From: Serinicoccus kebangsaanensis
Lineage (GTDB): Bacteria; Actinomycetota; Actinomycetes; Actinomycetales; Dermatophilaceae
DNA: 50,441 nucleotides
Assembly: GCF_008919445.1 (NCBI RefSeq)
Contig: NZ_VSLG01000019.1
Span: forward strand, 1 to 50,441
Direction: 5' to 3'
Every line of letters begins with the position of its first letter. Within the stretch, counting starts at the first letter, position 1. Made by a program: the position numbers and the translations under genes. This document shows positions 2,466 through 45,410 of this stretch, piece after piece. Below the pieces are notes generated by a model, which had not been told where the DNA came from, did not search any database, and was given only the letters and a program-made list of their open reading frames with translations.

Positions 2466-2879
2466 TCAGGACGCCTGGGGGCCGGCGATATTGACCATCC
2501 AGCTGACGCCGAACTGGTCGGTGAGCTGGCCGTAGGTGTCGCCCCACATCTGCGGCTCGAGCGGCATGGTGACCTGGCCGCCGTCGGCGAGCCCGTCCCA
2601 ATAGCCGCGCAGCTCGGCCTCGTCGTCGCCGCTCAGGCTGATCGACATGTTGCCCTCGGACGAGGCGGCGGGCATACCGGGCGGGGTGTCCGAGGCCATG
2701 AGGGTGAAGCCGGCCGGCGTGGTGAGCTGGGCATGCATGACGCCGTCGCTGCCCTCACCCTCCATGCCGTACTCACCAAACGTGTTGAGGGCGAGGTCAC
2801 CGCCGAAGATCTGCTGGTAGCGCTCCATCGCTGCCTTGGCCGAGCCGTCGAAGCTGACATAGGGGTTGAGCGTGGACAT
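2466..2879 (-). CDS. PhnB-like VOC family protein
   Basis: A 137-aa protein of the PhnB/YjdN-like branch of the VOC superfamily. It starts with the typical LNPYVSFDGSAKAAMERYQQIFGG block and continues with MHAQLTTPAGFTLMASD and the C-terminal WGDTYGQLTDQFGVSWMVN. Such proteins are small homodimers of mostly unknown substrate; despite the name, a phosphonate role is not implied. It is convergent with the preceding VOC gene (17 bp apart) and stands alone, with the DUF418 gene stopping 48 bp upstream. Confidence 0.85.
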   Translation of the reverse strand: MSTLNPYVSFDGSAKAAMERYQQIFGGDLALNTFGEYGMEGEGSDGVMHAQLTTPAGFTLMASDTPPGMPAASSEGNMSISLSGDDEAELRGYWDGLADGGQVTMPLEPQMWGDTYGQLTDQFGVSWMVNIAGPQAS

Positions 2880-2927
2880 GGCGTCTCCTCTCGGTCGACG
2901 GCCGGTCCGTCGAGCACATCGCGGAAA

Positions 2928-4205
2928 CTACACCCGGGAGGCGACAGACCGCATCGAGTCGCGTGACCCATAGGTGAACCTGCGCAGCACGACCTCCGCC
3001 GGCCCCGTGCGGCCGCTGCGGTCGAGCACCGCGCAGCCGACCACGGAGACGCCCCAGATGAGGATCGCGACGCCCGCCGCAGCCGCCGACCCCAGCACCC
3101 CGCCCAGGCCCAGACCCCAGGCCGCGAAGAGCGGAGCCATCGCCACCGACTGCCACAGGTAGGACGACAGCGACCGCCGCCCCACCGCCGACAGCGCCGA
3201 GGCCACCGGCCCCGGCCGCCAGGACTCACCGGCACGCTCGGCGCGCTGCTGCGCCTGACCGACCACCAGGGCGAAGAGCGCGGCATACCCCAGACCCCCG
3301 GCCAGCCCGGTGAGCGACTGCAGACCCATGAACATCCAGCTGATCTCGACGGGCACCCACAGCCCCAGGTGGGTGAGCATCATCGGCACACCGCCGAGCC
3401 ACGCCACCGGCAGCCCCAGGAGTGCGGTGCGTCGCAGCCGCGGCAGGTGCTCGGCCGGGCGGTCCAGCACACCGTCCCGCGCCCACAGCCACCCGGTGAG
3501 GATCGCGGCGGGCACGCTCAGGCTGACGACCGAGAAGCTGGTGATGAAGGCCCACTCCGAGAGCCTCGGCAGGATCGAGGCCGGGTAGGAGGCGATCGCG
3601 TTGGCGTCGGTCGTCGCGGGGATCATCCACGTCTCGGGCGGCACCTGCATCAGCGCCACCCCTCCGACGATCGCGCCGGCGGCGAAGAGCACCAGCAGAC
3701 CCAGCAGCACCCCGCGCACGACCCGGATCGCGCGGGTGCTGCGCAGGAAGAGCAGCGGGACCAGGATCAGCCCGAGCAGGCCGTAGACCCCGAGGACGTC
3801 GCCGAACCACAGCAGTGCCGCGTGCACGCCGCCCAGCACGAGGAGGCCGACGTGCCGCCGGGCCAGCATCGCGCGGAACTCCAGCAGCGGCGTCCCCCTG
3901 GCCTCCTGCGCCCGGGCGAACTGCACCATGCCGTAGCCGAAGAGCAGCGCGAACATCGGCAGCGCCCGCATGTCGACCAGCGGGATCATCAGCGCCTGGA
4001 CCACCCTGTCCGCCCCCTGGGCACCCAGCGGGTGGCCGAGGGTCAGGCCGCGCTCACCGGCATACAGGAACCACGGGATGTTGGCCAGCACGATGAGCAG
4101 CAGCATCACCCCACGGGCCAGGTCGGGCATCGCGGCGCGCGGCGGGACGGAGGGCGCCGCGGCGCGGCCGGGGGCGGGCGACGGCGTCCCGCTGGAGTCA
4201 CTCAC
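2928..4205 (-). CDS. DUF418 domain-containing membrane protein
   Basis: A 425-aa polytopic membrane protein. The N-terminus carries the LARGVMLLLIVLANIP motif typical of the acyltransferase-like/DUF418 family. Roughly ten hydrophobic segments follow, and the C-terminal third (about 255-405) fits the DUF418 domain, including SLSSYLWQS and a late GPAEVVLRRFTYG segment. The family is related to the OafA/YeiB type of membrane proteins; function is unknown, probably transfer or transport of a small group at the membrane. It is the last gene before the convergent VOC region. Three GGCATAC-type motifs fall in it or in its shadow strand (2672 is in the neighbour; 3287 and 4052 are here). Confidence 0.85.
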   Translation of the reverse strand: MSDSSGTPSPAPGRAAAPSVPPRAAMPDLARGVMLLLIVLANIPWFLYAGERGLTLGHPLGAQGADRVVQALMIPLVDMRALPMFALLFGYGMVQFARAQEARGTPLLEFRAMLARRHVGLLVLGGVHAALLWFGDVLGVYGLLGLILVPLLFLRSTRAIRVVRGVLLGLLVLFAAGAIVGGVALMQVPPETWMIPATTDANAIASYPASILPRLSEWAFITSFSVVSLSVPAAILTGWLWARDGVLDRPAEHLPRLRRTALLGLPVAWLGGVPMMLTHLGLWVPVEISWMFMGLQSLTGLAGGLGYAALFALVVGQAQQRAERAGESWRPGPVASALSAVGRRSLSSYLWQSVAMAPLFAAWGLGLGGVLGSAAAAGVAILIWGVSVVGCAVLDRSGRTGPAEVVLRRFTYGSRDSMRSVASRV

Positions 4206-4277
4206 CCCCGCAGCCTGTCATCGACCGGGCGTCCACGGGTATGACACCCGTCACCTGAGCGGGATCCTCAGCAAGCC

Positions 4278-4598
4278 TCAGCCTTCGCTCATCAGAGGCA
4301 GGTCGAGGTCATAGGCCAGGACGATGGCCCGGGCGAGAGAGCGTTCCTGCTCCGGCGCGAGGAAGCCCAGCGTGCGCCCGAGGACCCCGACCGGGACGGT
4401 CACCACGTTGTCGATCGAGACCACGCTCTGCTGCTCCACTCCGTTGACGGTCCCGACCGGGACCTCGCTGGACAGGCCTTTGATGGTGGATGTGATGGGC
4501 GCGACCGTCACCTTGCTCATCGCCGAGCGAGCGGCATCCCGCGTGAGCACGAGGACGGGCCTGGTCTTGTCCAGTCGTGCCAGACAGATCTCGCGCAC
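4278..4598 (-). CDS. MazF/PemK-family toxin (endoribonuclease)
   Basis: A 106-aa MazF-type toxin. The N-terminus LARLDKTRPVLVLTRD and the next strand VTVAPITSTIKGLSSEVPV are diagnostic of the MazF/PemK ribonuclease barrel; the conserved Arg of RPVLVL and the Thr of PITST are active-site positions in the family. It would cleave mRNA when released from the antitoxin. It starts with GTG only 3 nt after the antitoxin stop codon, so the two genes are translationally coupled. The first strand of the fold (GDI.WV) seems shortened to MREICL, as in several actinobacterial MazF proteins. Confidence 0.87.
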   Translation of the reverse strand: MREICLARLDKTRPVLVLTRDAARSAMSKVTVAPITSTIKGLSSEVPVGTVNGVEQQSVVSIDNVVTVPVGVLGRTLGFLAPEQERSLARAIVLAYDLDLPLMSEG

Positions 4599-5684: not shown

Positions 5685-6725
5685 TCAGGGCGTGTCCGTG
5701 TCCCGCGCGTCGTCGTCAAGCCCCGACCGGTCCGTCGAGTCCACCTCTCCGATGTGCACCAGCGCGTCACCCCGGTTGACCAGCGGCGCCTCGGCCCGGC
5801 CGATGACGACACCCGCGCGGTCGGCCTTGACGATGGCCAGCCGCTTGCCGAAGGAGTTGAAGAGCTCGCCGAGCTTCTCCCCCTCCTCGACGTGCTGCCC
5901 CAGCGCGACGTCCAGGTGCACGATCCCGGTGCGCCGGGCGCGCACCCAGCCGCTGCGCCAGCACACCTCGCTGGGGGTATGCAGGGGCGCCAAGTCGACC
6001 TCGTCGCGGTCGACCATCCCCAGGTGGGCCAGCACCCGGAGCACCCCGACGACGCCGGCGTCGATGGCCCACTCGTCGAAGCGCCACGCCTCGCCACCCT
6101 CGTAGAGCAGGACGCGCGCGCCCCGCTCGCGCGCGGCATACCGCAGCGAGCCGTCGCGGAGCTTGGCGTGATACATCACCGGGGCGCCGAAGGCCTCGGC
6201 CAGCTCGCGGGTCTGCGGGTCCTCCAGGTCGCACCGGATCTGCGGCAGGTTGGTGCGCCGGTCGGCGCCGGTGTGCAGGTCGATCCCGACGTCGGAGGGG
6301 CCGATGACCTCGCGCATCATCAGGTGCGCGATCCGCCCCGCGAGCGAGCCCCGGGCCGAGCCCGGGAAGCTGCGGTTGAGGTCGCGCCGGTCGGGGAGAT
6401 AGCGGTCTCCGGACATCACGCCGAGGACGTTGACGATGGGCACCGCCAGCACCGTGCCGCGGATGGTCTTCGGGTCCAGCACCGCCATCACCCGGCGGAC
6501 CACCTCGATGCCCACCACCTCGTCACCGTGGATCGCGGCGGAGAGCCACACCGTCGGCCCCTCCTCGCGGCCGTGCAGCACGTGCACCGGCAGGCTCACC
6601 TCGGCACCCGTGACCAGCCGGGAGATGGGCAGCGACACCTCGCGGCGGCTGCCCGCGCGGACCTTGACGGTGCCGATCGGGAAGGAGGGCCGCAGCGTGC
6701 GCGACCGGGTGCGGGTCTCGCTCAC
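5685..6725 (-). CDS. Succinylglutamate desuccinylase/aspartoacylase-family hydrolase
   Basis: A 346-aa zinc carboxypeptidase-like (M14 clan) hydrolase. Zn ligands are visible as H66 and E69 in SAAIHGDEVVG and H151 in GIDLHTGAD. RRDLNRSFPG (113-122) is the substrate-carboxylate binding segment, and VLLYEGGE (about 213-220) holds the catalytic Glu. A C-terminal beta domain (about 255-335) resembles a biotinyl/lipoyl-like barrel. Known members deacylate N-acyl amino acids. The GTG start overlaps the stop of the zinc-protease-like gene as GTGA (6722-6725), so the two are translationally coupled. Next to rimK, an inferred role is hydrolysis of a glutamyl or other acyl-amino-acid product. Confidence 0.87.
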   Translation of the reverse strand: MSETRTRSRTLRPSFPIGTVKVRAGSRREVSLPISRLVTGAEVSLPVHVLHGREEGPTVWLSAAIHGDEVVGIEVVRRVMAVLDPKTIRGTVLAVPIVNVLGVMSGDRYLPDRRDLNRSFPGSARGSLAGRIAHLMMREVIGPSDVGIDLHTGADRRTNLPQIRCDLEDPQTRELAEAFGAPVMYHAKLRDGSLRYAARERGARVLLYEGGEAWRFDEWAIDAGVVGVLRVLAHLGMVDRDEVDLAPLHTPSEVCWRSGWVRARRTGIVHLDVALGQHVEEGEKLGELFNSFGKRLAIVKADRAGVVIGRAEAPLVNRGDALVHIGEVDSTDRSGLDDDARDTDTP

Positions 6726-7210
6726 CGCTTCCCCCAGTTCCTGCGGCGCACGGCCCGCCCGGGCCGGCCCCCGGCATAGCTCGCGGCCGGGTCGACGAGG
6801 AAGCCCTGCACCAGCGCCTCCCTGCCGACGAGCATCCGGAAGCCCATCTCGTCCCGGTCGGTGAGCGTCACCTCCGCGGGCACCTCGCGGCCACCGAGGA
6901 CCAACGGGAGGAGCACGGCATACCGCTGCTCCTCGTGCCCCGACGAGGAGCGGACCGACCTCGTGTCGAGCAGGGGCAGCTCCATCGTCACCGCGTCCTC
7001 CGCGCTCGCCTGCCACGGGTGCACGGAGAAGCTGACCCAGGCACGGCCATACCGCTCCACCGTGCGCAGGTCGAAGGCGTGCAGCGCCGACGTCTTGGCA
7101 CCGGTGTCGATCTTGGCCTTGATCCAGGGCACCCCGAGCTGCGGGATCTGGACCCACTCGCGCCACCCGACGACGGTTCGATCTGTGGTGAGATGGTTGG
7201 ACCCTGTCAC
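6722..7210 (-). CDS. RimB-like 'ATP-dependent zinc protease' family protein
   Basis: A 162-aa protein of the family formerly called ATP-dependent zinc protease (retropepsin-like fold). The signature KAKIDTGAKTSALHA contains the catalytic-type Asp-Thr-Gly at 35-37, and VGWREWV near the N-terminus is family-typical. In proteobacteria the homologue RimB acts with RimK as a protease or deglutamylase. The start is a GTG; rimK begins 25 bp away on the opposite strand, so the two promoters must overlap heavily or one gene is leaderless. It is translationally coupled to the downstream aspartoacylase-like gene. Confidence 0.85.
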   Translation of the reverse strand: MTGSNHLTTDRTVVGWREWVQIPQLGVPWIKAKIDTGAKTSALHAFDLRTVERYGRAWVSFSVHPWQASAEDAVTMELPLLDTRSVRSSSGHEEQRYAVLLPLVLGGREVPAEVTLTDRDEMGFRMLVGREALVQGFLVDPAASYAGGRPGRAVRRRNWGKR

Positions 7211-7235: not shown

Positions 7236-8438
7236 ATGAAGCTCGCCATCCTCTCCCGGTCCCTGCGCGCCTACTCCACCCAGCGGCTGCGCACGGCCGC
7301 CCTCGACCGCGGCCACGAGGTCAAGGTGCTCGACACCCTGCGCTTCGGGATCGACCTGTCCGGCGACGAGCCGGACCTGCACTTCCGGGGCAGGCCGCTG
7401 TCGACCTACGACGCCGTGCTGCCGCGCGTCGGCGCCTCGGTGACCTACTTCGGCACCGCGGTCGTGCGCCAGTTCGAGCAGATGGACGTCTACACGCCGA
7501 ACACCGCCAACGGGATCATGAACAGCCGCGACAAGCTCCGCGCGACCCAGATCCTGTCCCGCCACGAGATCGGTATGCCGGCCACCGCCTTCGTCCGCAA
7601 CCGCGCCGAGATCCCGCACGCGATCGAGATGGTCGGCGGCGCGCCCGTCGTGGTCAAGCTGCTGGAGGGCACGCAGGGCATCGGCGTGATCCTGGCGCCC
7701 ACGATGAAGGTGGCCGAGGCGATCATCGAGACGCTGCACGGCACCAACCAGCAGGTGCTCATCCAGCGCTTCGTCAAGGAGTCCAAGGGCAAGGACGTGC
7801 GCGCCCTCGTCGTCGGCGACCGGGTCGTGGCGGCGATGCGGCGGCGCGCGCAGGGCGACGAGTTCCGCTCCAACGTGCACCGCGGCGGCACGGTCGAGAG
7901 CGTCGACCTCGACCCGGAGTACCAGGAGATCGCCGTCCGCGCAGCCCACATCATGGGCCTGCGGGTCGCCGGGGTGGACATGCTCGAGGGCAAGGACGGC
8001 CCGCTCGTCATGGAGGTCAACTCCTCCCCCGGCCTCGAGGGCATCGAGGCGGCGACCAAGCTGGACGTCGCCGGCGCGATCGTCGACTACATCGCCGACC
8101 AGGCCGGCTTCCCCGACATCGACGTGCGCCAGCGGCTCGCGGTGTCCACGGGGTATGGCGTGGCCGAGATCGCGGTCATGTCCGGCTCCGGACTGGTCGG
8201 GCAGGAGATCAAGGACTCGGGCCTGCGGGAGAAGGACATCCAGGTCCTCACCCTGCACCGCGGCACCCGGGTCGTCCCCAACCCGGCCGGCAGCAAGGTG
8301 CTCGAGGACGGCGACCGCCTGCTCTGCTTCGGCAAGCACGAGAACATGCGCTCGCTCATCCCCGCCCGCTCGCGCCGGCCCCGGCGGGTCCGCAAGCTGC
8401 CGAAGCAGCCGATCCACGAGGACACTCCCGGCGCCTGA
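7236..8438 (+). CDS. rimK: RimK-family alpha-L-glutamate ligase with C-terminal RCK/TrkA-C domain
   Basis: A 400-aa ATP-grasp enzyme. Residues 1-90 are the RimK N-terminal domain; 95-285 hold the ATP-grasp core with VVVKLLEGTQGIGVIL and the metal-binding EVNSSPGLEGIE near 268-280. RimK adds glutamate to ribosomal protein S6 or makes poly-glutamate or other peptides. An extra C-terminal domain (about 305-375: AEIAVMSGSGLVGQ, DIQVLTLHRG, LEDGDRLLCFG) matches the RCK_C/TrkA-C ligand-binding fold, which is absent from E. coli RimK (about 300 aa). It could sense a nucleotide or metabolite. The ATG at 7236 lies 25 bp from the divergent RimB-like gene. Confidence 0.9.
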   Translation: MKLAILSRSLRAYSTQRLRTAALDRGHEVKVLDTLRFGIDLSGDEPDLHFRGRPLSTYDAVLPRVGASVTYFGTAVVRQFEQMDVYTPNTANGIMNSRDKLRATQILSRHEIGMPATAFVRNRAEIPHAIEMVGGAPVVVKLLEGTQGIGVILAPTMKVAEAIIETLHGTNQQVLIQRFVKESKGKDVRALVVGDRVVAAMRRRAQGDEFRSNVHRGGTVESVDLDPEYQEIAVRAAHIMGLRVAGVDMLEGKDGPLVMEVNSSPGLEGIEAATKLDVAGAIVDYIADQAGFPDIDVRQRLAVSTGYGVAEIAVMSGSGLVGQEIKDSGLREKDIQVLTLHRGTRVVPNPAGSKVLEDGDRLLCFGKHENMRSLIPARSRRPRRVRKLPKQPIHEDTPGA

Positions 8439-8512
8439 GGTCGGCGCGCTGGGCGCAGACCCCGGCGGCCACGCGCACCCCAACCACCACACCTCCCTGC
8501 CCAGGTATGCCC

Positions 8513-9193: not shown

Positions 9194-9236
9194 ACCCCGG
9201 TCAACACGACTGGCGACGCGCGTGTTCCGGTATGCC

Positions 9237-11697: not shown

Positions 11698-13049
11698 GAG
11701 GACGCTCCTTGGGTCTCGAGCTCGTCGTCGGGGTCCGGGTCCGACTCGTGGAAGCGTGTGTCGACCGGCCGCACGAGCAGGTTCGCGACGAAGCCGACGA
11801 CGAGCACGCCCACCATGATGTAGAGGGACAGCAGGTAGAGGTCCGCACCCTCCTCGCCGCGCGCGGTCTGCAAGTCCTGGATCCCGGAGACGATGAGCGG
11901 CCCGGCGATGCCGGCGGCGGACCAGGCGGTGAGCAGGCGGCCGTGGATGGCCCCGACCTGCAGACCGCCGAAGAGGTCCTTGAGGTAGGCCGGGATGGTC
12001 GCGAAGCCGCCGCCGTAGAAGCTGAGGATCACCACGCTCATCAGCACGAAGAGCAGCAGCGAGGTGCGGCCGAGGGTCGCGACGCCGAGGTAGAGCAGGG
12101 CTCCCACGCCGAGGTAGAGCATGTAGGTGGGCTTGCGCCCGATGACGTCGGACGTGGAGGACCACACGATCCGGCCGGCCATGTTGGCCAGGCTGAGCAG
12201 GCTGACGAAGCCGGCGGCGGCGGCGGGGCCGACCCCGGAGAAGAAGTTCTGCACGATCGGGGAGGCCTGGGCCAGGATGCCGATGCCAGCGGTGACGTTG
12301 CAGAAGAGCACCGTCCACAGCAGCCAGAACTGCGGGGTCCGGATGGCGTTGCGGGCGGTGACGTCCGCCGTGGTCCTCATCGAGGTCTCGTCGGACTTCT
12401 CCGGCGGGGTCCATCCCTCCGGCTTCCAGTCCTGCGCCGGCACCCGGATGACGTAGGCGCCCAGACCCATGAGCACGGCATACACCACGCCGAGGGTGAC
12501 GAACGTCGGGACCAGACCGGCGACCGGGTCCTCGCCGCCGTAGAGCCCGAGCAGCCGGTTGCTCAGTGGCGACGCGATGAGGGCGCCGCCGCCGAAGCCC
12601 ATGATCGCCAGGCCGGTCGCCAGGCCCGGTCGGTCGGGGAACCACTTGATGAGCGTCGAGACGGGTGAGATGTAGCCCAGCCCCAGACCGATGCCGCCGA
12701 GCACGCCGTAGCCGAGGTAGACGATCCACAGCTGACCGGCCGAGACACCCAGGGCGGAGACCAGGAAGCCCGCGACCCACAGCGCCGCGGCGACCGCCAT
12801 CGTCTTGCGCGGGCCGTTGCGCTCCACCCAGGTCCCCAGGATCGCCGCGGACAGGCCGAGCATGACGATCGAGATGGAGAAGATGGTGGAGACCGCGGTG
12901 GCGGAGGCGCCGAAGCGCTCCTCGAGCGGGATGTTGAAGACGCTAAAGGCATACACCTGACCGATGGACAGGTGCACGGCGAGCGCGGCAGGCGGCACGA
13001 ACCACCGGTTGAACCCGGGGCCGGCGACGGTGCGCTCCCGGGCGAGCAT
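11694..13049 (-). CDS. OFA-family MFS transporter (oxalate/formate antiporter type)
   Basis: A 451-aa, 12-TM major facilitator of the oxalate:formate antiporter family. Family blocks include HLSIGQVYAFSVFNIPLE at TM1, GLGLGYISPVSTLIKWFPDRPGLATGLAIMGFGGGALI in TM4-5, and GFVSLLSLANMAGRIVWSSTSDVIGR at TM8. A central loop (about 200-235) carries PAQDWKPEGW, typical of the group. The start at ATG 13049 follows an AGGAGT ribosome site; the frame extends further but without a site. It is the first gene of the operon with the 50-aa small subunit and the FdhF/YdeP oxidoreductase. Transport of formate, oxalate or a related monocarboxylate is inferred from family and context. Confidence 0.9.
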   Translation of the reverse strand: MLARERTVAGPGFNRWFVPPAALAVHLSIGQVYAFSVFNIPLEERFGASATAVSTIFSISIVMLGLSAAILGTWVERNGPRKTMAVAAALWVAGFLVSALGVSAGQLWIVYLGYGVLGGIGLGLGYISPVSTLIKWFPDRPGLATGLAIMGFGGGALIASPLSNRLLGLYGGEDPVAGLVPTFVTLGVVYAVLMGLGAYVIRVPAQDWKPEGWTPPEKSDETSMRTTADVTARNAIRTPQFWLLWTVLFCNVTAGIGILAQASPIVQNFFSGVGPAAAAGFVSLLSLANMAGRIVWSSTSDVIGRKPTYMLYLGVGALLYLGVATLGRTSLLLFVLMSVVILSFYGGGFATIPAYLKDLFGGLQVGAIHGRLLTAWSAAGIAGPLIVSGIQDLQTARGEEGADLYLLSLYIMVGVLVVGFVANLLVRPVDTRFHESDPDPDDELETQGASS

Positions 13050-13785: not shown

Positions 13786-14289
13786 GTAGTTTCGCTCAGG
13801 GGGACCAAGAGGTCCGTCGCGGCCCAGCCCGGCGCGGGCCGAGCGCATCATCGCGGCGTGGTTGGCGCGCAGTGCCCAGCGGACGGGAGGGAGCGCGGCG
13901 AGGTGACGCAGGCCGGGCTTGGTCAGCAGCACCCGCTGCTCCCAGACCATGCGGCACCCGGCGGGGATCCGCGTGACCTGCACCTCGACATACCCCTGCA
14001 GGTCTCCCTCGATGCCGACCCGCAGCTGCCCGGCCTCCCGGTCCTCGCGCTCGCGGACGAGGGTCAGGTGCAGCGGCGCGGGGAGGAGGCTCCGGACGCG
14101 GACCCGCGCCCGGTCGGAGGCCAGCTGCTCGACCAAGCGCACCTGTCGCCACCACGTCGGGTAGGCCTCGAGGTCGACGAGCCGGTCCAGCACCGTCGCG
14201 GGCTCGACCGGCAGGGTCCAGTCCTCGTGGAAGCGGAACTCGCGGCCCCCGTCCGAGGGCCGCGGTGGGGTGGGCATACCGGCCATCAT
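13783..14289 (-). CDS. SRPBCC (START/polyketide-cyclase-like) family protein
   Basis: A 168-aa single-domain protein with the SRPBCC pattern: FRFHEDWTLPVEPATVLDRLVDLEAYPTWW at the N-terminus (strand plus lipid-pocket helix), VEVQVTRIPAGCRMVWEQRVLL in the middle and a long basic C-terminal helix (RWALRANHAAMMRSARAGL). Such proteins bind hydrophobic ligands or act as cyclases; no ligand can be predicted. Two in-frame ATGs start the gene (14289 and 14286). The stop codon abuts the XRE operator pair. Confidence 0.83.
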   Translation of the reverse strand: MMAGMPTPPRPSDGGREFRFHEDWTLPVEPATVLDRLVDLEAYPTWWRQVRLVEQLASDRARVRVRSLLPAPLHLTLVREREDREAGQLRVGIEGDLQGYVEVQVTRIPAGCRMVWEQRVLLTKPGLRHLAALPPVRWALRANHAAMMRSARAGLGRDGPLGPPERNY

Positions 14290-19548: not shown

Positions 19549-19599
19549 ACCTCCGAGTGTGTGCGGCTGCGTCGATGAGGTCCAGCGAATGTTTCTGCA

Positions 19600-31485: not shown

Positions 31486-31704
31486 GCTCACTGCTGTCCG
31501 GTCGGTCACGCCCCAGCCGCGGCCGACCTCGGTGAGGTATGCCGTTGCGCCGGCCCCGGAGGATCTGCTCCCCTTCGCCGTGGGTGACCTGCGGGCTGGG
31601 CGCGGGTCCGGCTCGGTGTCAGGGCGACACCACGTGCACGATATCGCGGTCAGGCCCCTGCCGGCGCCTCTGCGTCCGTCGCCGCGGTGCTCTACTGTCG
31701 AGCG

Positions 31705-35398: not shown

Positions 35399-36403
35399 GT
35401 GACCCCCGCTCCCCCGTCCCGCACGCTCTGCGCCGACGGCATCCGGCTGACGACGATCTCGACGGGGGCGGCGGTGGCGGGGCTCCGGCTCGAGGACAGC
35501 GAGGGCGGCTGGACCGACGTCGTCCTGGGTCACGCGGACCGTCGTTCCTACCGGCACGGGGGATACCTGGGAGCCGTCATCGGGCGGGTCGGCAACCGGA
35601 TCGACCGCGGGCGGTTCGAGCTGGACGGCGCGACCCACCAGGTGTCGGTCGACGAACGCGGCAACGCGCTGCACGGCGGCGTGGAGGGCTTCGACCTGCG
35701 GGAGTGGGAGCTCGTCGACGCCGCGGCGGACCACGTGACCTGGGGTCTGGTCTCGCCCGCCGGCGACCAGGGCTTCCCCGGTGAGGTGCGGGTGCAGGTG
35801 CGCTACCGGCTCAGCCCCGGCGAGGTGAGGCTCGACTACTCCGCCACCACGACCGCCCCGACCCCGCTCAACCTCACCCACCACGCCTACTTCAACCTGG
35901 ACGGCGAGTCCTCGGGCACCATCCGGGAGCACCGGCTGCAGGTCGAGGCCGACACCTTCATCCCCACCCGCCCGGACCAGATCCCGACCGGCGAGGTGCG
36001 CGAGGTCGCAGGCACCGCCTTCGACCTCCGCCAGCCGACGCCCCTCGCGGCGCCGCTCTCCGCGGCGGACGAGCAGGTGCGGATCGCCGGCGGCATCGAC
36101 CACCACTTCGTGGTGCGCGGTGAGGGTATGCGCCGGCACGCGACCCTCGTGGGCGGCTCGGGGCGCCGGCTGGAGGTCTGGAGCGACCGGCCCGGGGTGC
36201 AGGTCTACACCGGCGACCACTTCGACGGGACGATCACGGGGATCTCGGGGTCGGCATACCACCGCGAGGCGGGCGTGGCCCTGGAGACCCAGGGCCCGCC
36301 CGACGCGATCAACCAGCCGGGCTTCCCCTCGCCGGTGCTGCGCCCCGGCGAGACCTTCCGGTCGTGGACCGTCTGGCGAGTGGGCACCTCCGACCCGATC
36401 TGA
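35399..36403 (+). CDS. galM: Aldose 1-epimerase (mutarotase)
   Basis: A 334-aa GalM-type beta-sandwich enzyme. YLGAVIGRVGNRIDRGRFELDG and HGGVEGFDLREWEL (His near 93) are the first substrate block. LTHHAYFNLDGESSGTIREH carries the catalytic His pair, and VALETQGPPDAINQP near 300 the catalytic Glu. It interconverts alpha and beta sugar anomers. The gene starts with GTG 16 bp after the citrate synthase stop, so co-transcription is possible, though functionally the two are unrelated. Confidence 0.93.
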   Translation: MTPAPPSRTLCADGIRLTTISTGAAVAGLRLEDSEGGWTDVVLGHADRRSYRHGGYLGAVIGRVGNRIDRGRFELDGATHQVSVDERGNALHGGVEGFDLREWELVDAAADHVTWGLVSPAGDQGFPGEVRVQVRYRLSPGEVRLDYSATTTAPTPLNLTHHAYFNLDGESSGTIREHRLQVEADTFIPTRPDQIPTGEVREVAGTAFDLRQPTPLAAPLSAADEQVRIAGGIDHHFVVRGEGMRRHATLVGGSGRRLEVWSDRPGVQVYTGDHFDGTITGISGSAYHREAGVALETQGPPDAINQPGFPSPVLRPGETFRSWTVWRVGTSDPI

Positions 36404-36406: not shown

Positions 36407-38017
36407 TCAGCGGACGGGGACGTCCCGGCGGCGCAGGCCGACGAAGCCGGCCGCCACCAGCGCCGCACCGACCACGGTCAGCACGACCGCACCGGACGCG
36501 GAGGCACCCTCGCCGACGACGTCCTGCCCCACGGCCAGGTAGGGCGAGGCGTCCAGCAGCGCGTCCGGCAGCCCCAGCCCGGGGCCGAGGTAGGCCAGCA
36601 GCGCGGCCACCGCGAAGACCGCCCAGGCGAGGCCGAAGCCCCGCGGCAGCCAGCCGAAGAGCGCCACGACCAGGCCGAGGAAGATCACCGCCGTCGGGGC
36701 GTATGCCGCGGCCCCGGCGAGCAGCTCACCCACCCACGAGTCGTCCTCCAGCGAGGCGGCGGCGGTCCCGCCCAGCGCGAGGGCGCCGACGGCTCCGATG
36801 ACCGCGGCACCGACGACGACGATCGCCAGGTGGGTGGCCATCCAGCCGCCCCGGGACCGGCGGGAGGACAGCTCGACCTCCATCCGGGCACTCTCCTCCT
36901 CCCGGCGCAGCCCGCCGACCGCCATGACGACATAGGCCGTCACCAGCATCGCGAGCATCATCAGGAAGGTCGACATCACCGGTGAGAGCACCAGCTCGGC
37001 GGCCTGCTCCTCCGAGCCCCCACCGGCACCGAGGAAACCGCCCAGGGCGGGGTTGTCCAGCACCGCGTCGACGATCTCCTGGGCCAGCGAGCCGAAGACC
37101 GCCATGAGTGCGGCGCCGCCGACCGCCCAGCCGATCACCGCGCCGCGCTGCTGGTGCCAGGCCAGGCCGACCGGGGTCCGCAGGGCCCGCGAGGCCCGGG
37201 GCGTGGCCCGCCGCGGCTGCACCAGGGCGCTGCCGACGTCCCGACGGCCGCGCAGCCAGAAGGCGAGGACCAGCAGCAGCGCCCACGCCGCCAGGGGCAG
37301 CGCCAGCGGCCACCACCGGGCGTCGTCGCCGAAGGTGCGCAGCTCGTCCACCCAGCCGTGCGGGCTGGCCCAGACCAGGGCGCTCTCCTGCAGCGCCCCG
37401 ACCCCGCGCACCAGGTAGGACGCGACGGCCAGCGCCAGGCCGATCCCCCACACGGCGCGGTTGTGCTCGACGACCTGCGCCGCCACCGCGGTGAGGCCCA
37501 CGAAGACGAGACCGAGGCCGGCGACCCCGAGGCCGTAGCGGACCGAGCCGGTGGCGTCGGCGTCGAAGGCGACCATCGCCGCGCCGATGCCGAGCCCGGC
37601 CAGGACCACCGCCGCGCTGGCGAGCAGGGCCGCGGCCACGAGCGGGGCATACCGACCGACCCGGGCCGCGAGCAGCAGCTCCAGCCGGCCGGTCTCCTCG
37701 TCCCGGCGGGTGTGCCTGGCGGTCAGCGCGATCGCCATGACCGGCACCCCGAAGGACATGACGAAGCCGAACTCGTTGGCGAAGACGCCACCCAGGGTGT
37801 CCAGCCCGGCGATCCGGCCGTTGAGGACGGCGATGGCGTCGCCGCCGAGGCTCGCGGCATAGCCTGCGACCTTCTCCGGGGTGTCGTAGAGCGCCGCGAT
37901 GGAGGACCCGGTGAGGACCATGACGCCGATCAGCGCCACCACCCAGGCGACCAGCCCCTTCCACCCGGTGCGCCAGGCGATCCCGGTCATGGTGCCGACG
38001 CCGTGGACCGCGCTCAT
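36407..38017 (-). CDS. ABC transporter permease (polyketide antibiotic exporter type)
   Basis: A 536-aa permease with about twelve hydrophobic segments in two similar halves (about 20-250 and 280-530), each starting with a conserved module ([33 protein letters not shown]). Segments such as [18 protein letters not shown] and [18 protein letters not shown] are typical of the actinobacterial exporter permease family. It is the third gene of the TetR-ABC-permease operon; its ATG overlaps the ABC gene stop (38014-38017). It probably exports a hydrophobic compound; the compound is unknown. Confidence 0.88.
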
Positions 38018-38934
38018 CGCGCACCGACCAGGGTCTCGTCGCCCGCGTAGGCCTGCAGGAAGAGGTCGTCCAGGCTCGGCGGCGTCACGGTGAGGGTGTG
38101 GATGCCGGCGTCGTGCAGCACACCCACCAGCCGGCCGACCGCGTCCGGCTCGGCCGACGCGTGGACCTCGTGCCGGCCCTCGTCGTCGGTGCCGGTCTCG
38201 ACGTCGCTGACCCCGGGCATACCCTCCAGGGCGGGCCGCTGGTCGGTGACCGCGCGCACCGTGGAGTGGGTATGCCGTCGCAGGTCCGTCAGCGTGCCGG
38301 TCGTGACCGTGCGGCCGGCGCGGATGATCGAGACCCGGTCGGCCAGCGCCTCGACCTCGCCGAGGATGTGGCTGGAGAGCAGCACGGTCGTGCCCTGCTC
38401 CCGGCGCTCACCGACGACCTGCTGGAAGACCTCCTCCATCAGCGGGTCCAGGCCCGAGGTCGGCTCGTCCAGCACGAGCAGCTCGGAGTCGGTGGCGAGC
38501 GCGGCGACGAGGGAGACCTTCTGCCGGTTGCCCTTGGAGTAGTCGCGCGAGCGCTTGCTGGGGTCGAGGTCGAAGCGGTCGATCAGCTCGGCCCGCCTCG
38601 ACTCGTCGATCTGCCCGTGCGCGCGGGCCAGGATGTCGATGCACTGACCGCCGGTGAGCCCGGGCCACAGCGTCACGTCCCCCGGCACGTAGGCGAGCCT
38701 GGAGTGCAGCTCCACGGCGTCCGCCCACGGGTCACCGCCGAAGAGCCGGGCGGAGCCGCCGTCGGCCCGCATCAGGCCGAGCAGGATGCGGATGGTGGTG
38801 GACTTGCCGGCGCCGTTCGGGCCGAGGAAGCCGTGCACCTCGCCGCGGTCGACGACGAGGTCCAGCCCGTCCAGCGCGGTGGTGCGGCCGAAGGTCTTGC
38901 GCAGACCGTCGATCTCGATGAGGTGGTCGCTCAT
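38014..38934 (-). CDS. ABC transporter ATP-binding protein
   Basis: A 306-aa ATPase. Walker A is GPNGAGKST (38-46); the signature is YSKGNRQKV (132-140), the variant LSGGQ seen in antibiotic-exporter ATPases; Walker B is LLVLDEP (152-158), followed by [13 protein letters not shown] and the H-loop [10 protein letters not shown]. The C-terminal part (about 215-306) is an extra domain with [10 protein letters not shown] near the end. It overlaps the TetR gene upstream (ATGA at 38931-38934) and the permease downstream, forming a tight three-gene operon. Confidence 0.92.
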
Positions 38935-39607: not shown

Positions 39608-40213
39608 ATGAGCCAGCCAGCCACCCGCAGGGTCGACGTCCCCGCCTGGGCGAACCGCGTCATACCCGTGCTGGTGCTCGTCGCCGTGATGTGGGTGACC
39701 GAGATCGTCGACCTGCTGCTGCCGCTGCCGCTGGACCAGTTCGGCATCCGGCCGCGGGACCCGGGGCACCTGGCCGGCATCGTGCTCAGCCCGTTCCTGC
39801 ACCTGGGCTTCGGCCACCTGATGGCCAACACCGTGACGCTGCTCGTGCTCGGCTCACTGCTCGCCCTGACCACACGGCACCTGTGGCTGGTCACCGGCGG
39901 CGTGGTCCTGCTCGGCGGGCTGGGCGTGTGGCTGCTCGGTGGCCCGAACACGGTCCACATCGGCGCCAGCGGCGTCGTCTACGGGTATGCCGCGTTCCTC
40001 GCCGCCTACGGCTTCGTCGCCCGGCGGGTGGGGCAGGCGCTGCTCGGCCTGCTCGTCATCGTCGTCTACGGCTCCATGCTGTGGGGCGTGCTGCCGGTGC
40101 GCGAGGGCGTGTCCTGGCAGGCGCACCTTTTCGGGGCGGCCGCCGGTGTGGCGCTGGCGTTCTGGCTGGGGCGGCGCGACCGCGACCGCGACACGGCACC
40201 CGCCCGGCGCTGA
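39608..40213 (+). CDS. Rhomboid family intramembrane serine protease
   Basis: A 201-aa six-TM rhomboid. The catalytic Ser is S121 in HIGASGVVYG and the His is H173 in SWQAHLFGAAAG; the HLMAN segment (70-74) supplies the conserved His and Asn. It cleaves membrane protein substrates within or near the bilayer; targets are unknown. Its start is 53 bp from the divergent TetR gene. The 3' side runs into the 22-bp tandem repeat array. Confidence 0.92.
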   Translation: MSQPATRRVDVPAWANRVIPVLVLVAVMWVTEIVDLLLPLPLDQFGIRPRDPGHLAGIVLSPFLHLGFGHLMANTVTLLVLGSLLALTTRHLWLVTGGVVLLGGLGVWLLGGPNTVHIGASGVVYGYAAFLAAYGFVARRVGQALLGLLVIVVYGSMLWGVLPVREGVSWQAHLFGAAAGVALAFWLGRRDRDRDTAPARR

Positions 40214-40818: not shown

Positions 40819-41835
40819 ATGAAGCGCATCGGCTTTCTCTCCTTCGGCCACTGGACGCCGCACCCCCAGTCCGCGACGCAGTCCGCCTCGGACGTCCTGC
40901 TGCAGTCGATCGACCTGGCCGCCGCGGCCGAGGACCTCGGCGCCGACGGCGCCTACTTCCGGGTGCACCACTTCGCCCGCCAGCTGGCCTCGCCCTTCCC
41001 GCTGCTCGCCGCCGTTGGCGCGCGGACGCAGCGGATCGAGATCGGCACCGGCGTGATCGACATGCGCTACGAGAACCCGCTCTACATGGTGGAGGACGCC
41101 GGGGCCGCCGACCTCATCGCCGGTGGTCGCCTCCAGCTGGGCATCAGCCGCGGCAGCCCGGAGCAGGTCGTCGAGGGTTACCGGCACTTCGGTCACGACC
41201 CTGCGGACGGTGAGAGCGACGCGGACATGGCGCGACGGCATACCGCCCGCTTCCTCAAGGCGCTCTCGGGCGAGGGGTTCGCCGAGCCGAGCCCCCGCCC
41301 GATGTTCCCCAACCCGCCCGGGCTGCTGCGCCTGGAGCCGCACAGCGAGGGCCTGCGCGAGCGGATCTGGTGGGGTGCCGGCACCCGCGCGACCGCCGAG
41401 TGGGCGGCCGGTGAGGGGATGAACCTCATGAGCTCGACCCTGCTCACCGAGGACACCGGCGTCCCCTTCCACCAGCTGCAGGCCGAGCAGATCCAGGTCT
41501 TCCGCGACGCGTGGACCGCCGCCGGTCACGACCGGACGCCCCGGGTGTCGGTGAGCCGCAGCGTCTTCCCGCTGCGGACCGCCCAGGACCACGCATACTT
41601 CGGGCTCGAGCGGCGCAGCTCCGACCAGGTCGGGATCATCGACGGCGTGCGCGCGACCTTCGGCAAGACGTATGCCGCCGAGCCGGACGAGCTCGCGCGT
41701 CAGCTGGCCGCCGACGAGGCCGTCGCCGCGGCGGACACGCTGCTGCTGACGGTCCCGAACCAGCTCGGCGTCGACTACTGCGCGCACGTGATCGAGGGCG
41801 TGCTGGAGGTGGCCGCCGAGCTCGGCTGGCGCTGA
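40819..41835 (+). CDS. LLM class flavin-dependent oxidoreductase
   Basis: A 338-aa luciferase-like monooxygenase, TIM-barrel type. Segments include ADGAYFRVHHFARQLASPFPLLAAVGARTQRIEIGTGVIDMRYENPLYMVEDAGAADLIAGGRLQLGISRGSPEQVVEGYRHFG, the typical barrel start of the F420/FMN-binding group. WWGAGTRATAEWAAGEGMNLM lies near 200. It oxidises a small molecule using reduced flavin or F420; the cofactor cannot be decided from sequence alone. The ATG is preceded by a short leader in the divergent region. Confidence 0.88.
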   Translation: MKRIGFLSFGHWTPHPQSATQSASDVLLQSIDLAAAAEDLGADGAYFRVHHFARQLASPFPLLAAVGARTQRIEIGTGVIDMRYENPLYMVEDAGAADLIAGGRLQLGISRGSPEQVVEGYRHFGHDPADGESDADMARRHTARFLKALSGEGFAEPSPRPMFPNPPGLLRLEPHSEGLRERIWWGAGTRATAEWAAGEGMNLMSSTLLTEDTGVPFHQLQAEQIQVFRDAWTAAGHDRTPRVSVSRSVFPLRTAQDHAYFGLERRSSDQVGIIDGVRATFGKTYAAEPDELARQLAADEAVAAADTLLLTVPNQLGVDYCAHVIEGVLEVAAELGWR

Positions 41836-41978: not shown

Positions 41979-43331
41979 TCACTCGGCGACGCGGAACTCG
42001 CCGACCTCGCGGTGCGTGAGCGCGACCCAGGCCCCCGCGGCCAGGCAGGCGAGCGAGCCGAGCAGCGCGGACCAGGCCGGCGTGGTGAGCCCGGCGACGA
42101 GGCCCGCGCGGGCGTTGCCGACGTCCGGCCCGGCGACGCCGATGACGTGCTCGACCGCCGACACCCGCCCCAGGTGGCTGTCCGACGTGGCCAGCTGCAC
42201 CATCGCGGCCCGTGAGGTGACCGACACCGTGTCGGCAGCTCCCGCCACGACGAGGGCGCCCAGCGCTGCCCACGCCACGCCGGTGAGCGAGGCGACGCCG
42301 AAGCCGAGCAGGGCCAGGCCCCAGACCCCGACCGCGAGCAGCTGGACCACGCCGAGGCGGCGCCGACGGGTGACCAGGCCGGATCCCAGCCCGGCGGTGA
42401 CCCCACCGATGGCGATGCAGGTGAGGAAGAGGCCGAGGGTGCGCGGGTCGCCGCCGAAGAGGGACTGGTTGACCATCGGGAAGAGCGCCACCGGGAAGGC
42501 GAGCAGCGTCGCCGCCAGGTCGAGGAGGAACGACCCGCGCAGCACCGGGTCGCGACGCACCTGCCCCACGCCCTCACCCAGCAGGACCAGCGCAGTGCGG
42601 ACGCGGCGTCGCAGCCTCGCGGACCGCGGGACGGGGTATGCCTGCTCGGCCTCGGCGGGGCCGCGCGCCGGCGCCGCGCCGTCCACGTCCCCGCTCCCGG
42701 GCGGTGGCGTGGGCCGCTGCGGTGGCATCGCCGGCAGGGTCCACACGGTCCACGCGCTGACGACGAGCGCGACGGCGTTGACCAGGTAGCACAGGGCGGG
42801 TGAGGCGACGCCCAGCAGCAGACCGCCCACGGCCGGGCCGGCCATCATGGCCACCTGGAAGCTGATCATGTGCAGCGCGATCGCCGCTGGCACGAGGGTA
42901 CGGGGCATGAGGCGGACGATGAAGGTGCGTCGCGCCGGGGCACCGAGCGCGCTGCAGGCGGTCTGCAGGCTGAGCACGGCGAGCAGGAGCGGCAGCGGGT
43001 AGAGCCCCACCGCGAGCTGCGCGCCGAGCACGAGCGCCGCGGCGGCCTGCCCGAGGGTGGCCCCGAGGGCGACGCGGCGCCGGTCCAGGACGTCGGCGAC
43101 CGGACCGCCGACCAGTCCCATGACGATCATCGGGACCGCCTGCGCGACCCCGATCGAGGCGACCCAGAAGGGGTTCCGCGTCATCTCCCAGACCTGGAAG
43201 AGCACCGCCACGACGGCGACCTGGTGCCCCAGCCCGGACAGCGCACCGCCGACCCAGAGGCGGCGGTAGGGACGGCTGTGCCGCAGCGGCGTGAGATCGA
43301 TCAGGGCGCTGCCGGCCCGAGGCCCGCTCAC
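41979..43331 (-). CDS. MFS transporter (drug-exporter-like)
   Basis: A 450-aa, 12-TM facilitator: YRRLWVGGALSGLGHQVAVVAVLFQVWEMTRNPFWVASIGVAQAVPMIVMGLVGGPVADVLDRRRVALGATLGQ at the start, with the conserved GGPVADVLDRRR motif of loop 2-3, and a later GSGLVTRRRRLGVVQL. A proline-rich loop (about 215-235) separates the halves. It is preceded by a MarR regulator 70 bp upstream on the same strand, so the two probably form an efflux unit. The GTG start at 43331 lies beside an 18-nt copy of the 32-bp repeat core. Confidence 0.85.
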   Translation of the reverse strand: MSGPRAGSALIDLTPLRHSRPYRRLWVGGALSGLGHQVAVVAVLFQVWEMTRNPFWVASIGVAQAVPMIVMGLVGGPVADVLDRRRVALGATLGQAAAALVLGAQLAVGLYPLPLLLAVLSLQTACSALGAPARRTFIVRLMPRTLVPAAIALHMISFQVAMMAGPAVGGLLLGVASPALCYLVNAVALVVSAWTVWTLPAMPPQRPTPPPGSGDVDGAAPARGPAEAEQAYPVPRSARLRRRVRTALVLLGEGVGQVRRDPVLRGSFLLDLAATLLAFPVALFPMVNQSLFGGDPRTLGLFLTCIAIGGVTAGLGSGLVTRRRRLGVVQLLAVGVWGLALLGFGVASLTGVAWAALGALVVAGAADTVSVTSRAAMVQLATSDSHLGRVSAVEHVIGVAGPDVGNARAGLVAGLTTPAWSALLGSLACLAAGAWVALTHREVGEFRVAE

Positions 43332-43401: not shown

Positions 43402-43887
43402 TCACGCTCCGTCCCTCCCGAGGTGCTCCTCCAGCCGCTCGGCGAACGACCGGCGACCCAGTGCTGCGGCCATGTCCGCGGCGACCTGGGTCGCGGCATA
43501 CGGCAGCTCGGCGTCCAGCTCGGCGATCGCCGCCTCGGTCGCCCGCCACTCCGCCTCGGCCAGCGGGACGAGCGCCCGGCCGCGGTCGGTCAGGGTGACG
43601 ACCCGGGTGCGGCCGTCCTCGCCCGGCTCGCTGCCGACCAGGCCCGCCTGGCGCATCTGGGCGACGGTCTGCGACAGCGCCGAGTGGGTGCGGTCCAGCT
43701 CGCCGGCGAGCGCGGTGATGGTCATGGGTCCCACGTGCGCCAGCCGCACCAGCGGGAGGATGAAGCGCGACCTGACCTCGCCCTCGCCGCGGGCGCGGTA
43801 GACCTCGGTGATCGCCGCGTCGATGTCGGCGAGGACGTCGAAGAGCTGCTTGAAGTGGCTGGTGCGGGTCGGGTCGGTCGATGTCAC
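43402..43887 (-). CDS. MarR-family transcriptional regulator
   Basis: A 161-aa MarR protein. The winged HTH is MTITALAGELDRTHSALSQTVAQMRQAGLVGSEPGEDGRTRVVTLTDRGRALVPLAEAEWRAT (about 55-118), with the wing motif DGRTRVVTLTDRG. It lies upstream of the MFS transporter on the same strand and starts at GTG next to a palindrome AACAGCACTGTT, so it likely represses itself and the transporter. Confidence 0.88.
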   Translation of the reverse strand: MTSTDPTRTSHFKQLFDVLADIDAAITEVYRARGEGEVRSRFILPLVRLAHVGPMTITALAGELDRTHSALSQTVAQMRQAGLVGSEPGEDGRTRVVTLTDRGRALVPLAEAEWRATEAAIAELDAELPYAATQVAADMAAALGRRSFAERLEEHLGRDGA

Positions 43888-43898: not shown

Positions 43899-43910
43899 AA
43901 CAGCACTGTT
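43899..43910. promoter_or_regulatory. MarR operator candidate AACAG-ca-CTGTT
   Basis: A 12-bp palindrome of AT-richer sequence lies 12 bp upstream of the MarR start codon, between it and the divergent VOC gene. MarR proteins usually bind such 12-16 bp palindromes. Supported by symmetry and position only. Confidence 0.65.
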
Positions 43911-43967
43911 GGAAATCCGCGGTCGCATGGCGATGAGGTGCGTCGGTCCCGTGAATCAGACTGAGGC

Positions 43968-44375
43968 ATGAGCACCGACCTGGTCCCCTCCCTCTTCGGG
44001 CTGGAGGACGCCTTCAACGGCTTCTCCGTCGACGACCTCGACGCCGCCGAGGCCTTCTACCGCGACACCCTCGGCATACCCGTCGACCGCACCTACGGGG
44101 CGATGGACCTGCTGCAGCTCCGGCTGGGTGCCCGCTCCGTGCTGGTCTATCCCAAGGGCCCGGCGCACGCCCCCGCCAGCTACACCGTGCTCAACTTCCC
44201 GAGCGACGACGTGCATGCCACGGTCCGGGAGCTGACCGAGCGAGGGCTGAGCTTCCTGCGCTACGACGGTATGCCGCACGACGAGCTGGGGGTGATGACC
44301 GGCGGTGGGCCGCTGATCGCGTGGTTCACCGACCCGGCCGGCAACGTCCACTCGGTCATCCAGCGGGACGACTGA
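43968..44375 (+). CDS. VOC family protein
   Basis: A 135-aa glyoxalase-family protein: AFNGFSVDDLDAAEAFYRDTLGIPVDRTYG (Asn rather than His at the first ligand position), MDLLQLRLGARSVLVYPKGPAH, YTVLNFPSDDVHATVRELTERGLSFL, and FTDPAGNVHSVIQRDD at the end. The missing first His and the Val-His at the C-terminus suggest a non-enzymatic or altered-metal member. It is divergent from the MarR gene across an 80-bp region. Confidence 0.85.
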   Translation: MSTDLVPSLFGLEDAFNGFSVDDLDAAEAFYRDTLGIPVDRTYGAMDLLQLRLGARSVLVYPKGPAHAPASYTVLNFPSDDVHATVRELTERGLSFLRYDGMPHDELGVMTGGGPLIAWFTDPAGNVHSVIQRDD

Positions 44376-44420
44376 CCGGGCACCGGCCGCAAGGGGCTGG
44401 GCGGCTGGTAGACCTGAGCC

Positions 44421-45410
44421 ATGAGACTCCTGCTGCTCGGCGGCACCGCCTTTCTCGGCCGTGCCGTCGCCATCGAGGCCATGGGTCGTGGCCACGACGT
44501 CACCTGCCTCGCCCGGGGCAGCGCGCCTCCCCCGGACGGCGTCACCTTCGTGCGCGCCGACCGGGACGAGCCGGACGCGCTGGCCGAGGTGCGCGGCCAG
44601 GACTGGGACGCGGTGCTCGACGTGACCCGGCAGCCGGGGCAGGTGCGTCGTGCGGTCGCCGAGCTGCGCACCCCGCACTGGGTTTTCGTCTCCACCGCCA
44701 ACGTGTATGCCCCCGCGCCGGGCCTCCGGCCGGTCGAGACCGACCCGTTGCTCGAGCCGCTGGCCGGCGAGGTGATGGAGTCGATGGAGGACTACGGACC
44801 GGCCAAGGTCGCCTGCGAGCAGGCCGCGGCCGACGGCATGGCGGCGACCGGGGGCACCGCGACCCTGGCCCGCGCGGGGTTGATCGCCGGCCCGGGCGAC
44901 GAGTCGGGGCGCGTCGGCTACTGGCCCTGGCGGTTCGCGCACCCCAGCGGCTCGGACGTGATCGTGCCGGACGACCCCGACTTCCCGGTCGCCTTCATCG
45001 ACGTGCGGGACCTCGCTGGCTGGCTGGTGGACGCGGCCGAGCAGCGGTTGGAGGGGGCATACAACGTCACCGGCGAGGTGGTGTCGCTGACCGACGTGCT
45101 GGCGGCCGCCGCGGACGCGGCCGGCGCGAGCGTGCCGGCCCGGCCGGTCGCGCCGCAGACCCTGGCCGAGCTGGGCGTCGCGCCGTGGATGGGCCCGCGG
45201 TCGCTGCCGCTGTGGATCGACGACCCGGACCTGCGGGAGTTCGCGGCGCTGAACATCTCCCGGGCCGTGGGCTCGGGCCTGCGGCTGCGGCCGCTCGCGA
45301 CCACGCTGGCCGACACGCTCGCCTGGGAGGAGACCCGGCATACCCCGCGGCGGGCCGGCCTCACGGACGACGAGGAGCGGGAGATCCGCGCCGCGCTCGA
45401 CGCCGGCTGA
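44421..45410 (+). CDS. NAD-dependent epimerase/dehydratase family protein
   Basis: A 329-aa extended-SDR protein. The nucleotide-binding loop LLLGGTAFLGRAVAIEA is at 4-20; the catalytic YGPAKVACE (Tyr-x-x-x-Lys-like) lies near 129. The C-terminal part carries WIDDPDLREFAALNISRAVGSGLRLRPL. It resembles the reductase/isomerase group of short extended SDRs of actinobacteria. Substrate unknown. Its stop codon adjoins the 32-bp triplet repeat. Confidence 0.87.
   Translation: MRLLLLGGTAFLGRAVAIEAMGRGHDVTCLARGSAPPPDGVTFVRADRDEPDALAEVRGQDWDAVLDVTRQPGQVRRAVAELRTPHWVFVSTANVYAPAPGLRPVETDPLLEPLAGEVMESMEDYGPAKVACEQAAADGMAATGGTATLARAGLIAGPGDESGRVGYWPWRFAHPSGSDVIVPDDPDFPVAFIDVRDLAGWLVDAAEQRLEGAYNVTGEVVSLTDVLAAAADAAGASVPARPVAPQTLAELGVAPWMGPRSLPLWIDDPDLREFAALNISRAVGSGLRLRPLATTLADTLAWEETRHTPRRAGLTDDEEREIRAALDAG

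Follow-up and report, generated by a model that had tools for sequence, protein, structure and literature searches.

The 50,441-nt contig NZ_VSLG01000019.1 (the window, which is contig C10 in a draft assembly of 3.50 Mb) is crowded with copies of one 7-mer, GTATGCC or its complement GGCATAC, which raises the question of what maintains so short a word. As described below, the word is enriched genome-wide and clade-wide on both strands alike and overrides codon usage. Several other words (dialects) exist in the family, the genes of a DNA uptake machine are present, and a DNA uptake signal appears the likeliest role.

The word in the window and in the source genome

An earlier note on the window had put the copies at about 50, with about five expected and both orientations equally frequent. 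The count bears this out: 51 copies (24 GTATGCC and 27 GGCATAC), the first at 2671 and the last at 45337, compared with 2.2 expected under an order-1 Markov model and 5.6 under an order-3 model, the latter expectation already being inflated by the motif itself. Ranked against order 3, the word comes first among the window 7-mers having at least ten copies. An order-5 null predicts 49 copies, but it was dropped: the 6-mers that make up the word are enriched too, which leaves such a model without information. With 57 crude gene calls, 47 copies fall in window genes, whereas 200 synonymous-codon shuffles average 3.7 and never exceed 8. The note had also described the motif as pervading a core of the window. 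It is not confined there: the draft genome holds 1051 GGTATGCCG (539 and 512 by strand), compared with 3 copies of the reversed word.

Detailed statistics were drawn from 450 kb of the source genome, comprising 20 stretches and the window, with crude gene calls. These hold 347 GTATGCC, or 0.77 per kb, with the consensus G(0.67)-GTATGCC-G(0.63) and with A nearly excluded from the last place (0.01). The word is written GGTATGCC(G), or GGTATGCC[not A]. Beyond the consensus, the flanks display only the 3-base periodicity of codons. The strands are balanced in each of six contigs (182 plus and 165 minus when summed; chi-square about 4.0 on 6 degrees of freedom).

Codon choice yields to the word. 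The 313 genic copies use all six frames, as had been claimed, though unevenly (sense 5, 23 and 164; antisense 33, 22 and 66): xxG-TAT-GCC (164) and xxG-GCA-TAC (66) lead, and the other four frames together account for 83. Where the protein sequence is compatible with the word, 310 of 885 places (35%) carry it, compared with 0-1.9% for six control 7-mers. Rare codons are forced, again as claimed, TAT and ATA being used to build the word. Between G and GCC, tyrosine is encoded by TAT 164 times and by TAC 22 times, compared with 66 TAT and 1706 TAC for tyrosines with neither a G before them nor an Ala after them (Fisher p 2e-157). A preceding G with no Ala mildly raises TAT (61 : 205), as does a following GCC with no G (21 : 103). 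The rare isoleucine codon ATA occupies 33 of 128 compatible Gly-Ile sites, the change from ATC to ATA being a transversion.

Several kinds of base change, including those to ATA, thus make the word, and a single mutational process is insufficient to explain it. Simple C-to-T deamination of GTACGCC was rejected, as it cannot supply the changes needed in the Gly-Ile, His-Thr and Val-Cys frames; the transversions among the word-favouring changes also exclude it. A codon, dipeptide or mutational artefact would fit the dominance of the Tyr-Ala and Ala-Tyr frames (230/313), but the genes hold 323 perfect copies compared with 25 in synonymous shuffles, the control 7-mers remain almost empty, and every frame and intergenic DNA are used. 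The artefact reading is refuted, and with it the possibility, which the earlier note had named as fatal to its proposal, that common dipeptides in normal codons would suffice. The filled places, the six frames, the intergenic copies and the use of rare codons give good support to selection or drive at the level of DNA, not of protein.

The enrichment is largely restricted to the exact word. The 21 one-mismatch words in genes sum to 524 compared with 655 in shuffles, and GTACGCC, one synonymous step off, is found 29 times compared with 138. Four one-mismatch words exceed the shuffles, GTATGTC and GTATGCA by 3-4 fold and GTAGGCC and GTATGCG by 1.3 fold; the first two, as counted in 470 kb of the source genome, are perhaps tolerated variants. 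In the same 470 kb, gaps below 50 bp are avoided (2 occur where 13.8 would be expected), those of 400-1600 bp are over-represented, and gaps above 6.4 kb number 5 compared with 2.2 expected. Nine of the 11 pairs lying less than 100 bp apart are in opposite orientation.

Distribution in the family and dialect words

Counts were made in 186 genomes of the word's family, which we infer to be GTDB Dermatophilaceae, containing Ornithinimicrobium, and in a 248-genome sample of the order, 229 of these outside the family. In a survey of ComEC, the named loci closest to the source genome came from Knoellia, Terrabacter, Humibacillus, Intrasporangium, Janibacter, Arsenicicoccus, Tetrasphaera and Phycicoccus. 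Presence in related genomes, which the earlier note had proposed as a check, is clear: GGTATGCCG occurs 0-61 times in the 229 other genomes of the order, and 119 of the 186 family genomes lie above that maximum, the highest with 2198. There are at least 100 copies in 113 family genomes, 60-99 in 6 and fewer in 67. The source genome's own genus (Ornithinimicrobium) has 193-1323 copies in 30 of 31 genomes. Genera at background level include g27, g36, g46, g38, g2 and g51. There are also lone background genomes within motif-rich genera, namely G114 of the own genus (just 20 copies), G008 (g4) and G084 (g33), which represent natural cases of loss.

Single loci from named organisms agree with the genome counts. 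The Phycicoccus elongatus Lp2 locus has 22 GTATGCC in 22 kb, and 18 copies lie in 22 kb from an uncultured Tetrasphaera. GTATGCC is absent from the examined Janibacter indicus and Intrasporangium flavum loci, and Streptomyces and Nocardioides loci have 0-4. Orthologous, amino-acid-compatible sites compared across 22 ComEC regions from Ornithinimicrobium retain the word in 59-78% of cases for proteins sharing 60% identity or more, and in 40% (34/84) for those in the 50-60% bin. Retention is above the 35% base rate, yet there is turnover; single sites seem dispensable and abundance does not.

Other words were sought among 6- to 8-mers in 16 family genomes (40-80 kb each), among the words listed, and then by synonymous shuffles (60-100 kb each). 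Such words emerged in motif-poor genomes, and three of them were counted genome-wide. The first is CGAAGGGG, the dialect in 19/19 genomes of two genera, one of them Janibacter-like. CGAAGGGGNG is found 296-772 times in 16/16 genomes of g27, 892-1040 times in 3/3 of g36 and 18-99 times in the other 167 genomes, while the 19 g27 and g36 genomes have merely 3-20 GGTATGCCG. As a 12 kb Janibacter indicus locus carries 6 CGAAGGGG and 0 GTATGCC, g27 is probably Janibacter. A second word, GGATGCCG, differs from the own core by one base and is the dialect in one sampled genome of each of two genera: it reaches 3949 copies in G178, which has 11 GGTATGCCG, and 3816 in G017, which has 52, compared with 260-1038 in 54 of the 57 genomes sampled. 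G036 (g15) has two dialects, with 2195 GGATGCCG and 492 GGTATGCCG, and is possibly in a transition state between them. A further dialect word, CGATGCGG, belongs to one species: CGATGCGGTG is found 529 times in G083 and 15-85 times in the other 56, its congener G082 included. All dialect words are strand-symmetric.

No clear dialect word was seen in 60-100 kb each of G160, G001, G011, G038 and G008. Four further candidates, GTACGCCG (G090), GTACGGCG (G084), GGACGCGT (G184) and GCTGACGG (G021), are not claimed, because their excess over synonymous shuffles was no more than about 4-5 fold or fell on one strand side only, and because words of the GCAGCAGC/CGAGCAGC type score equally high in several genomes. 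GTATGCCGC of G041 (g18) was set aside, its copies lying within a longer repeat and not among the enriched coding words. The same genome holds GTATGCCG 19 times in 60 kb (L093, L094 and L101), sharing a GTATGCCGCTGGGC-like string, as an interspersed repeat family containing the word. GTAC-centred words (CGTACGCCG, CGTACGGCG or ACGTACGC) are several-fold up in L087, L088 and L102 of G090 and in L067-L070 and L103 of G084; such words are also up in the Nocardioidaceae loci L150, L159, L164 and L185. They are possibly further iterated motifs or codon-pair effects.

Competence machinery

In Micrococcus luteus, transformation uses ComEA, ComEC and tad genes (PMC4322843), and the same gene set is found in the family genomes tested. 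ComEC (PF03772) is present in 180/186 family genomes. In the source genome comEA, which encodes a helix-hairpin-helix motif, lies ahead of comEC, next to degV- and leuS-like genes, all named by sequence and position. TadE was found in 33/33 genomes tested, 4 of these outside the family. A Tad-like cluster that includes a TadA-like ATPase was recognised from sequence in the source genome, which has another TadE/TadG set as well. Type IVa pili were rejected as the uptake machine because PilM is found in only 7/186 genomes. Neither ComEC nor ComEA separates motif-rich from motif-poor genomes: ComEC occurs in both alike, and absence of ComEA from motif-poor genomes was rejected since a ComEA pattern matched in 17/20 loci, a pattern that missed the source genome's own comEA (read by eye) and gave no match at L100 and L106. 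A difference is that no uptake word is mentioned for the Micrococcus luteus system: the main texts of PMC4322843 and PMC12849477 contain the term 'uptake sequence' zero times.

A proposed DNA uptake signal and its rivals

Based on these observations, we lean towards GGTATGCC[not A] being a DNA uptake signal of Dermatophilaceae, akin to the DNA uptake sequences (DUS) and uptake signal sequences (USS) of other bacteria. We infer an uptake preference, a receptor and a drive. Family members would be naturally competent through a machine of the Micrococcus luteus type (Tad/Flp pilus, ComEA, ComEC), whose putative surface receptor would prefer fragments bearing the word. Fragments from kin would then be taken up and recombined more often, so that point mutations creating the word would spread and those destroying it would be replaced, a form of molecular drive. 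The genome would fill to about one copy per kb wherever proteins tolerate the word, and a change of receptor specificity in a lineage could lead to gradual rewriting of the genome to another dialect.

The known systems offer a close comparison. USS and DUS occur at about one copy per kb without orientation bias, are fairly regularly spaced with some close opposite pairs, prefer non-coding DNA yet have many genic copies, outnumber their one-mismatch forms and are family-wide (PMC1626085). The USS of Pasteurellaceae comes in two subclade-specific types, Hin AAGTGCGGT and Apl ACAAGCGGT, with competence genes kept family-wide (PMC1626085). The present word likewise has a short non-palindromic core found about once per kb in no preferred orientation, with many genic copies, a family-wide range with clade types, and competence machinery. 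It has a large excess of perfect copies over the protein-keeping null, and its one-mismatch copies have no such excess. The avoidance of short gaps also speaks for an uptake signal, as do the motif-free defence island and the phage at background level that are described below. In contrast to the Pasteurellaceae case, it belongs to another phylum, is a different word, lacks AT-rich flanking segments and is accompanied by Tad genes with PilM rare. Neisseriaceae DUS also have several dialects, each clade-conserved and of high copy number (PMC3630211), a pattern repeated here. The neisserial dialects share a CTG core, whereas here GTATGCC and GGATGCC share a core and CGAAGGGG does not. Further, the neisserial receptor is known, the type IV pilus minor pilin ComP (PMC6370729), whereas no receptor was found here.

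That no receptor was found is one of several points that weigh against an uptake signal. Natural transformation is not known from this family, and none is described among the matches listed in the literature searched. ComEC, ComEA and TadE are equally present in genomes where no word was detected (G160, G001, G011 and G038), and the machinery therefore does not predict the motif. The preference of USS and DUS for non-coding DNA, typical of them rather than defining, is not seen, the density per kb being 0.78 in coding and 0.68 in intergenic DNA by the crude gene calls. Terminator-like pairs are rare: only 2 pairs lie less than 50 bp apart, both inverted and inside called genes. Regular spacing is matched only in part: short gaps are few and gaps of 400-1600 bp many, but with a coefficient of variation of 1.05 in the 470 kb, a value owed to the long gaps, spacing is overall not more regular than random. 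One-mismatch copies outnumber perfect ones in absolute terms, with 624 compared with 347 for GTATGCC and 303 compared with 138 for GGTATGCCG, the high-GC background supplying many of them; two further comparisons of perfect with one-mismatch copies go the same way (220 compared with 414, and 231 compared with 401). This last point lowers the probability of an uptake signal, and that of the wider claim below, and slightly raises that of three rivals. As the preference for word-bearing DNA is a prediction, and as the non-coding preference and the perfect-copy majority are lacking, the word is likened to DUS and USS rather than classed with them.

Dialects alone are no proof of uptake, since the highly iterated palindromes (HIP) of cyanobacteria also show clade replacement (PMC4390886), and for this reason a HIP1-like system is the main rival. 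Under this explanation, which we consider unlikely, an orphan methyltransferase and methylation-dependent mismatch repair would create and maintain the word and dialects would track changes of methyltransferase. HIP1 is an octamer strewn genome-wide, and some genomes have alternate HIPs in its place, together with the methyltransferases that match them (PMC4390886). The source genome does have a Type ISP enzyme and matches to PF02384 and PF00145. However, HIPs are palindromic and have a cognate methyltransferase (PMC4390886), whereas GTATGCC and three other dialect words are not palindromic and no such partner emerged from the families tested. Among 33 word-rich genomes, PF01555 was found in 6, PF02384 in 22 and PF00145 in 18, so that none is universal, and two genomes, G108 (a single contig with 994 GGTATGCCG) and G007 (466), are without all three; this negative covers these three families only, and PF02384 scores Type ISP enzymes weakly. 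Moreover, the Type ISP enzyme of the source genome sits in a low-GC, motif-free island. A binding site for an abundant nucleoid or segregation protein, or some other DNA-level function with turnover of sites, is about as unlikely. It would suit the avoidance of spacings below 50 bp, the partial positional conservation between orthologues at 60% identity and above, and the 3-4 fold enrichment of two one-mismatch words, but most one-mismatch words lie at or below shuffle, which is atypical of ordinary protein-binding sites, and a protein with hundreds of sites could hardly follow a whole-word swap between genera unless drive operates.

A recombination or chromosome-handling signal, either Chi-like for a nuclease of the AddAB/RecBCD type or resembling the FtsK-orienting polar sequences (KOPS), is the most doubtful of the functional alternatives. 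Chi-type motifs are short, species-specific and over-represented, and dialects could track the specificity of the nuclease. However, Chi and KOPS are oriented with replication, whereas use of the strands here is balanced in the six draft contigs and genome-wide, with origin and terminus unmapped. An uptake signal is judged most likely because the density, strand neutrality, family distribution and dialects fit it, while HIPs are palindromic with cognate methyltransferases and Chi and KOPS are oriented. The earlier note had named HIP1, uptake sites and Chi as possible analogues; this was the right list, and the evidence favours the uptake sites.

A wider claim, for which we put the chances at about even or just above, is that this would be the first case of such a signal system beyond the Proteobacteria. 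In it, a Tad-pilus/ComEA/ComEC machine would read the word, at least four dialects would exist (GTATGCC, GGATGCCG, CGAAGGGG and CGATGCGG, with two in G036), and the dialects would set sexual isolation between genera. Among the matches listed in the literature searched, where subscription papers and bioRxiv were mostly uncovered, there is no description of GGTATGCCG or GTATGCC as an iterated genomic motif; nor is the word described among the matches listed from the topic literature on uptake sequences, iterated motifs and competence in these groups. Self-recognition words are known from two unrelated bacterial families. If the claim is true, high-GC Gram-positives would provide a third independent case, in which the logic of USS and DUS would hold for a different phylum, a different machine and pilus type, and words of no relation to theirs. 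Words that change wholly between genera of one family would then offer a test of how signals originate and switch. Natural transformation would further be expected of Ornithinimicrobium, Janibacter, Phycicoccus, Tetrasphaera, Knoellia and their relatives, wastewater phosphate accumulators among them, and work on the genetics of these bacteria would gain a practical tool. Even without uptake, an explanation is needed for a word that shifts the odds of tyrosine codons about 190-fold, fills much of a family and is swapped for another in other genera.

Motif-poor DNA

The longest gap in the 470 kb of the source genome covers 10.4 kb on contig C2 (106.5-116.9 kb; L019:6518-16936), is motif-free and has 62% GC. 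Its genes encode a Type ISP/IIG restriction enzyme, a NucC-like/DUF6602 protein and a SIR2 protein, and the gap is a defence island. A small TadE/TadG pilin operon adjoins it. Plasmid records matching the Type ISP enzyme numbered 286, all below 60% identity, and were not used further. The one phage of a family host that was examined, Tetrasphaera phage TJE1 (58% GC), has 3 copies of the word in 49 kb compared with 2.3 expected.

Copies in the window and its motif-free ends

The copies that the earlier note had cited for their reading frames all agree with the gene calls. They comprise GGT-ATG-CC at 7573..7579 (+) in a RimK-family gene (7236-8438), GTA-TGC at 19831..19837 (+), TAT-GCC at 20448..20454 (+), GCA-TAC at 34794..34800 (-) in a citrate-synthase-family gene (34252-35382), GGC-ATA at 44073..44079 (-), and CAT-ACC both at 41237..41243 (-) in a luciferase-like gene (40819-41835) and at 45337..45343 (-) in an epimerase-family gene (44421-45410).

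The remaining copies are exact matches. On the plus strand they lie at 8505..8511, 9230..9236, 14545..14551, 17301..17307, 18025..18031, 21633..21639, 24587..24593, 27277..27283, 30280..30286, 31019..31025, 31537..31543, 32385..32391, 33495..33501, 33800..33806, 36701..36707, 38270..38276, 39985..39991, 41670..41676, 42636..42642, 44269..44275 and 44705..44711. Those on the minus strand are at 2671..2677, 3282..3288, 4059..4065, 6135..6141, 6917..6923, 12477..12483, 12948..12954, 14273..14279, 16109..16115, 18238..18244, 19544..19550, 20763..20769, 21108..21114, 26440..26446, 27832..27838, 29905..29911, 31225..31231, 34131..34137, 36253..36259, 37646..37652, 38216..38222, 43495..43501 and 45056..45062.

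The ends of the window, 1-2669 and 45345-50441, are motif-free. The 7.8 kb outside 2670-45345 thus has zero copies (Poisson p 0.0025), a value that flatters because these borders are defined by the motif copies themselves. One end carries an APH-family phosphotransferase gene (316-1434, minus strand), and the other a RibD_C protein gene (47860-49059, minus strand) and a TetR regulator gene (48457-49134, plus strand).

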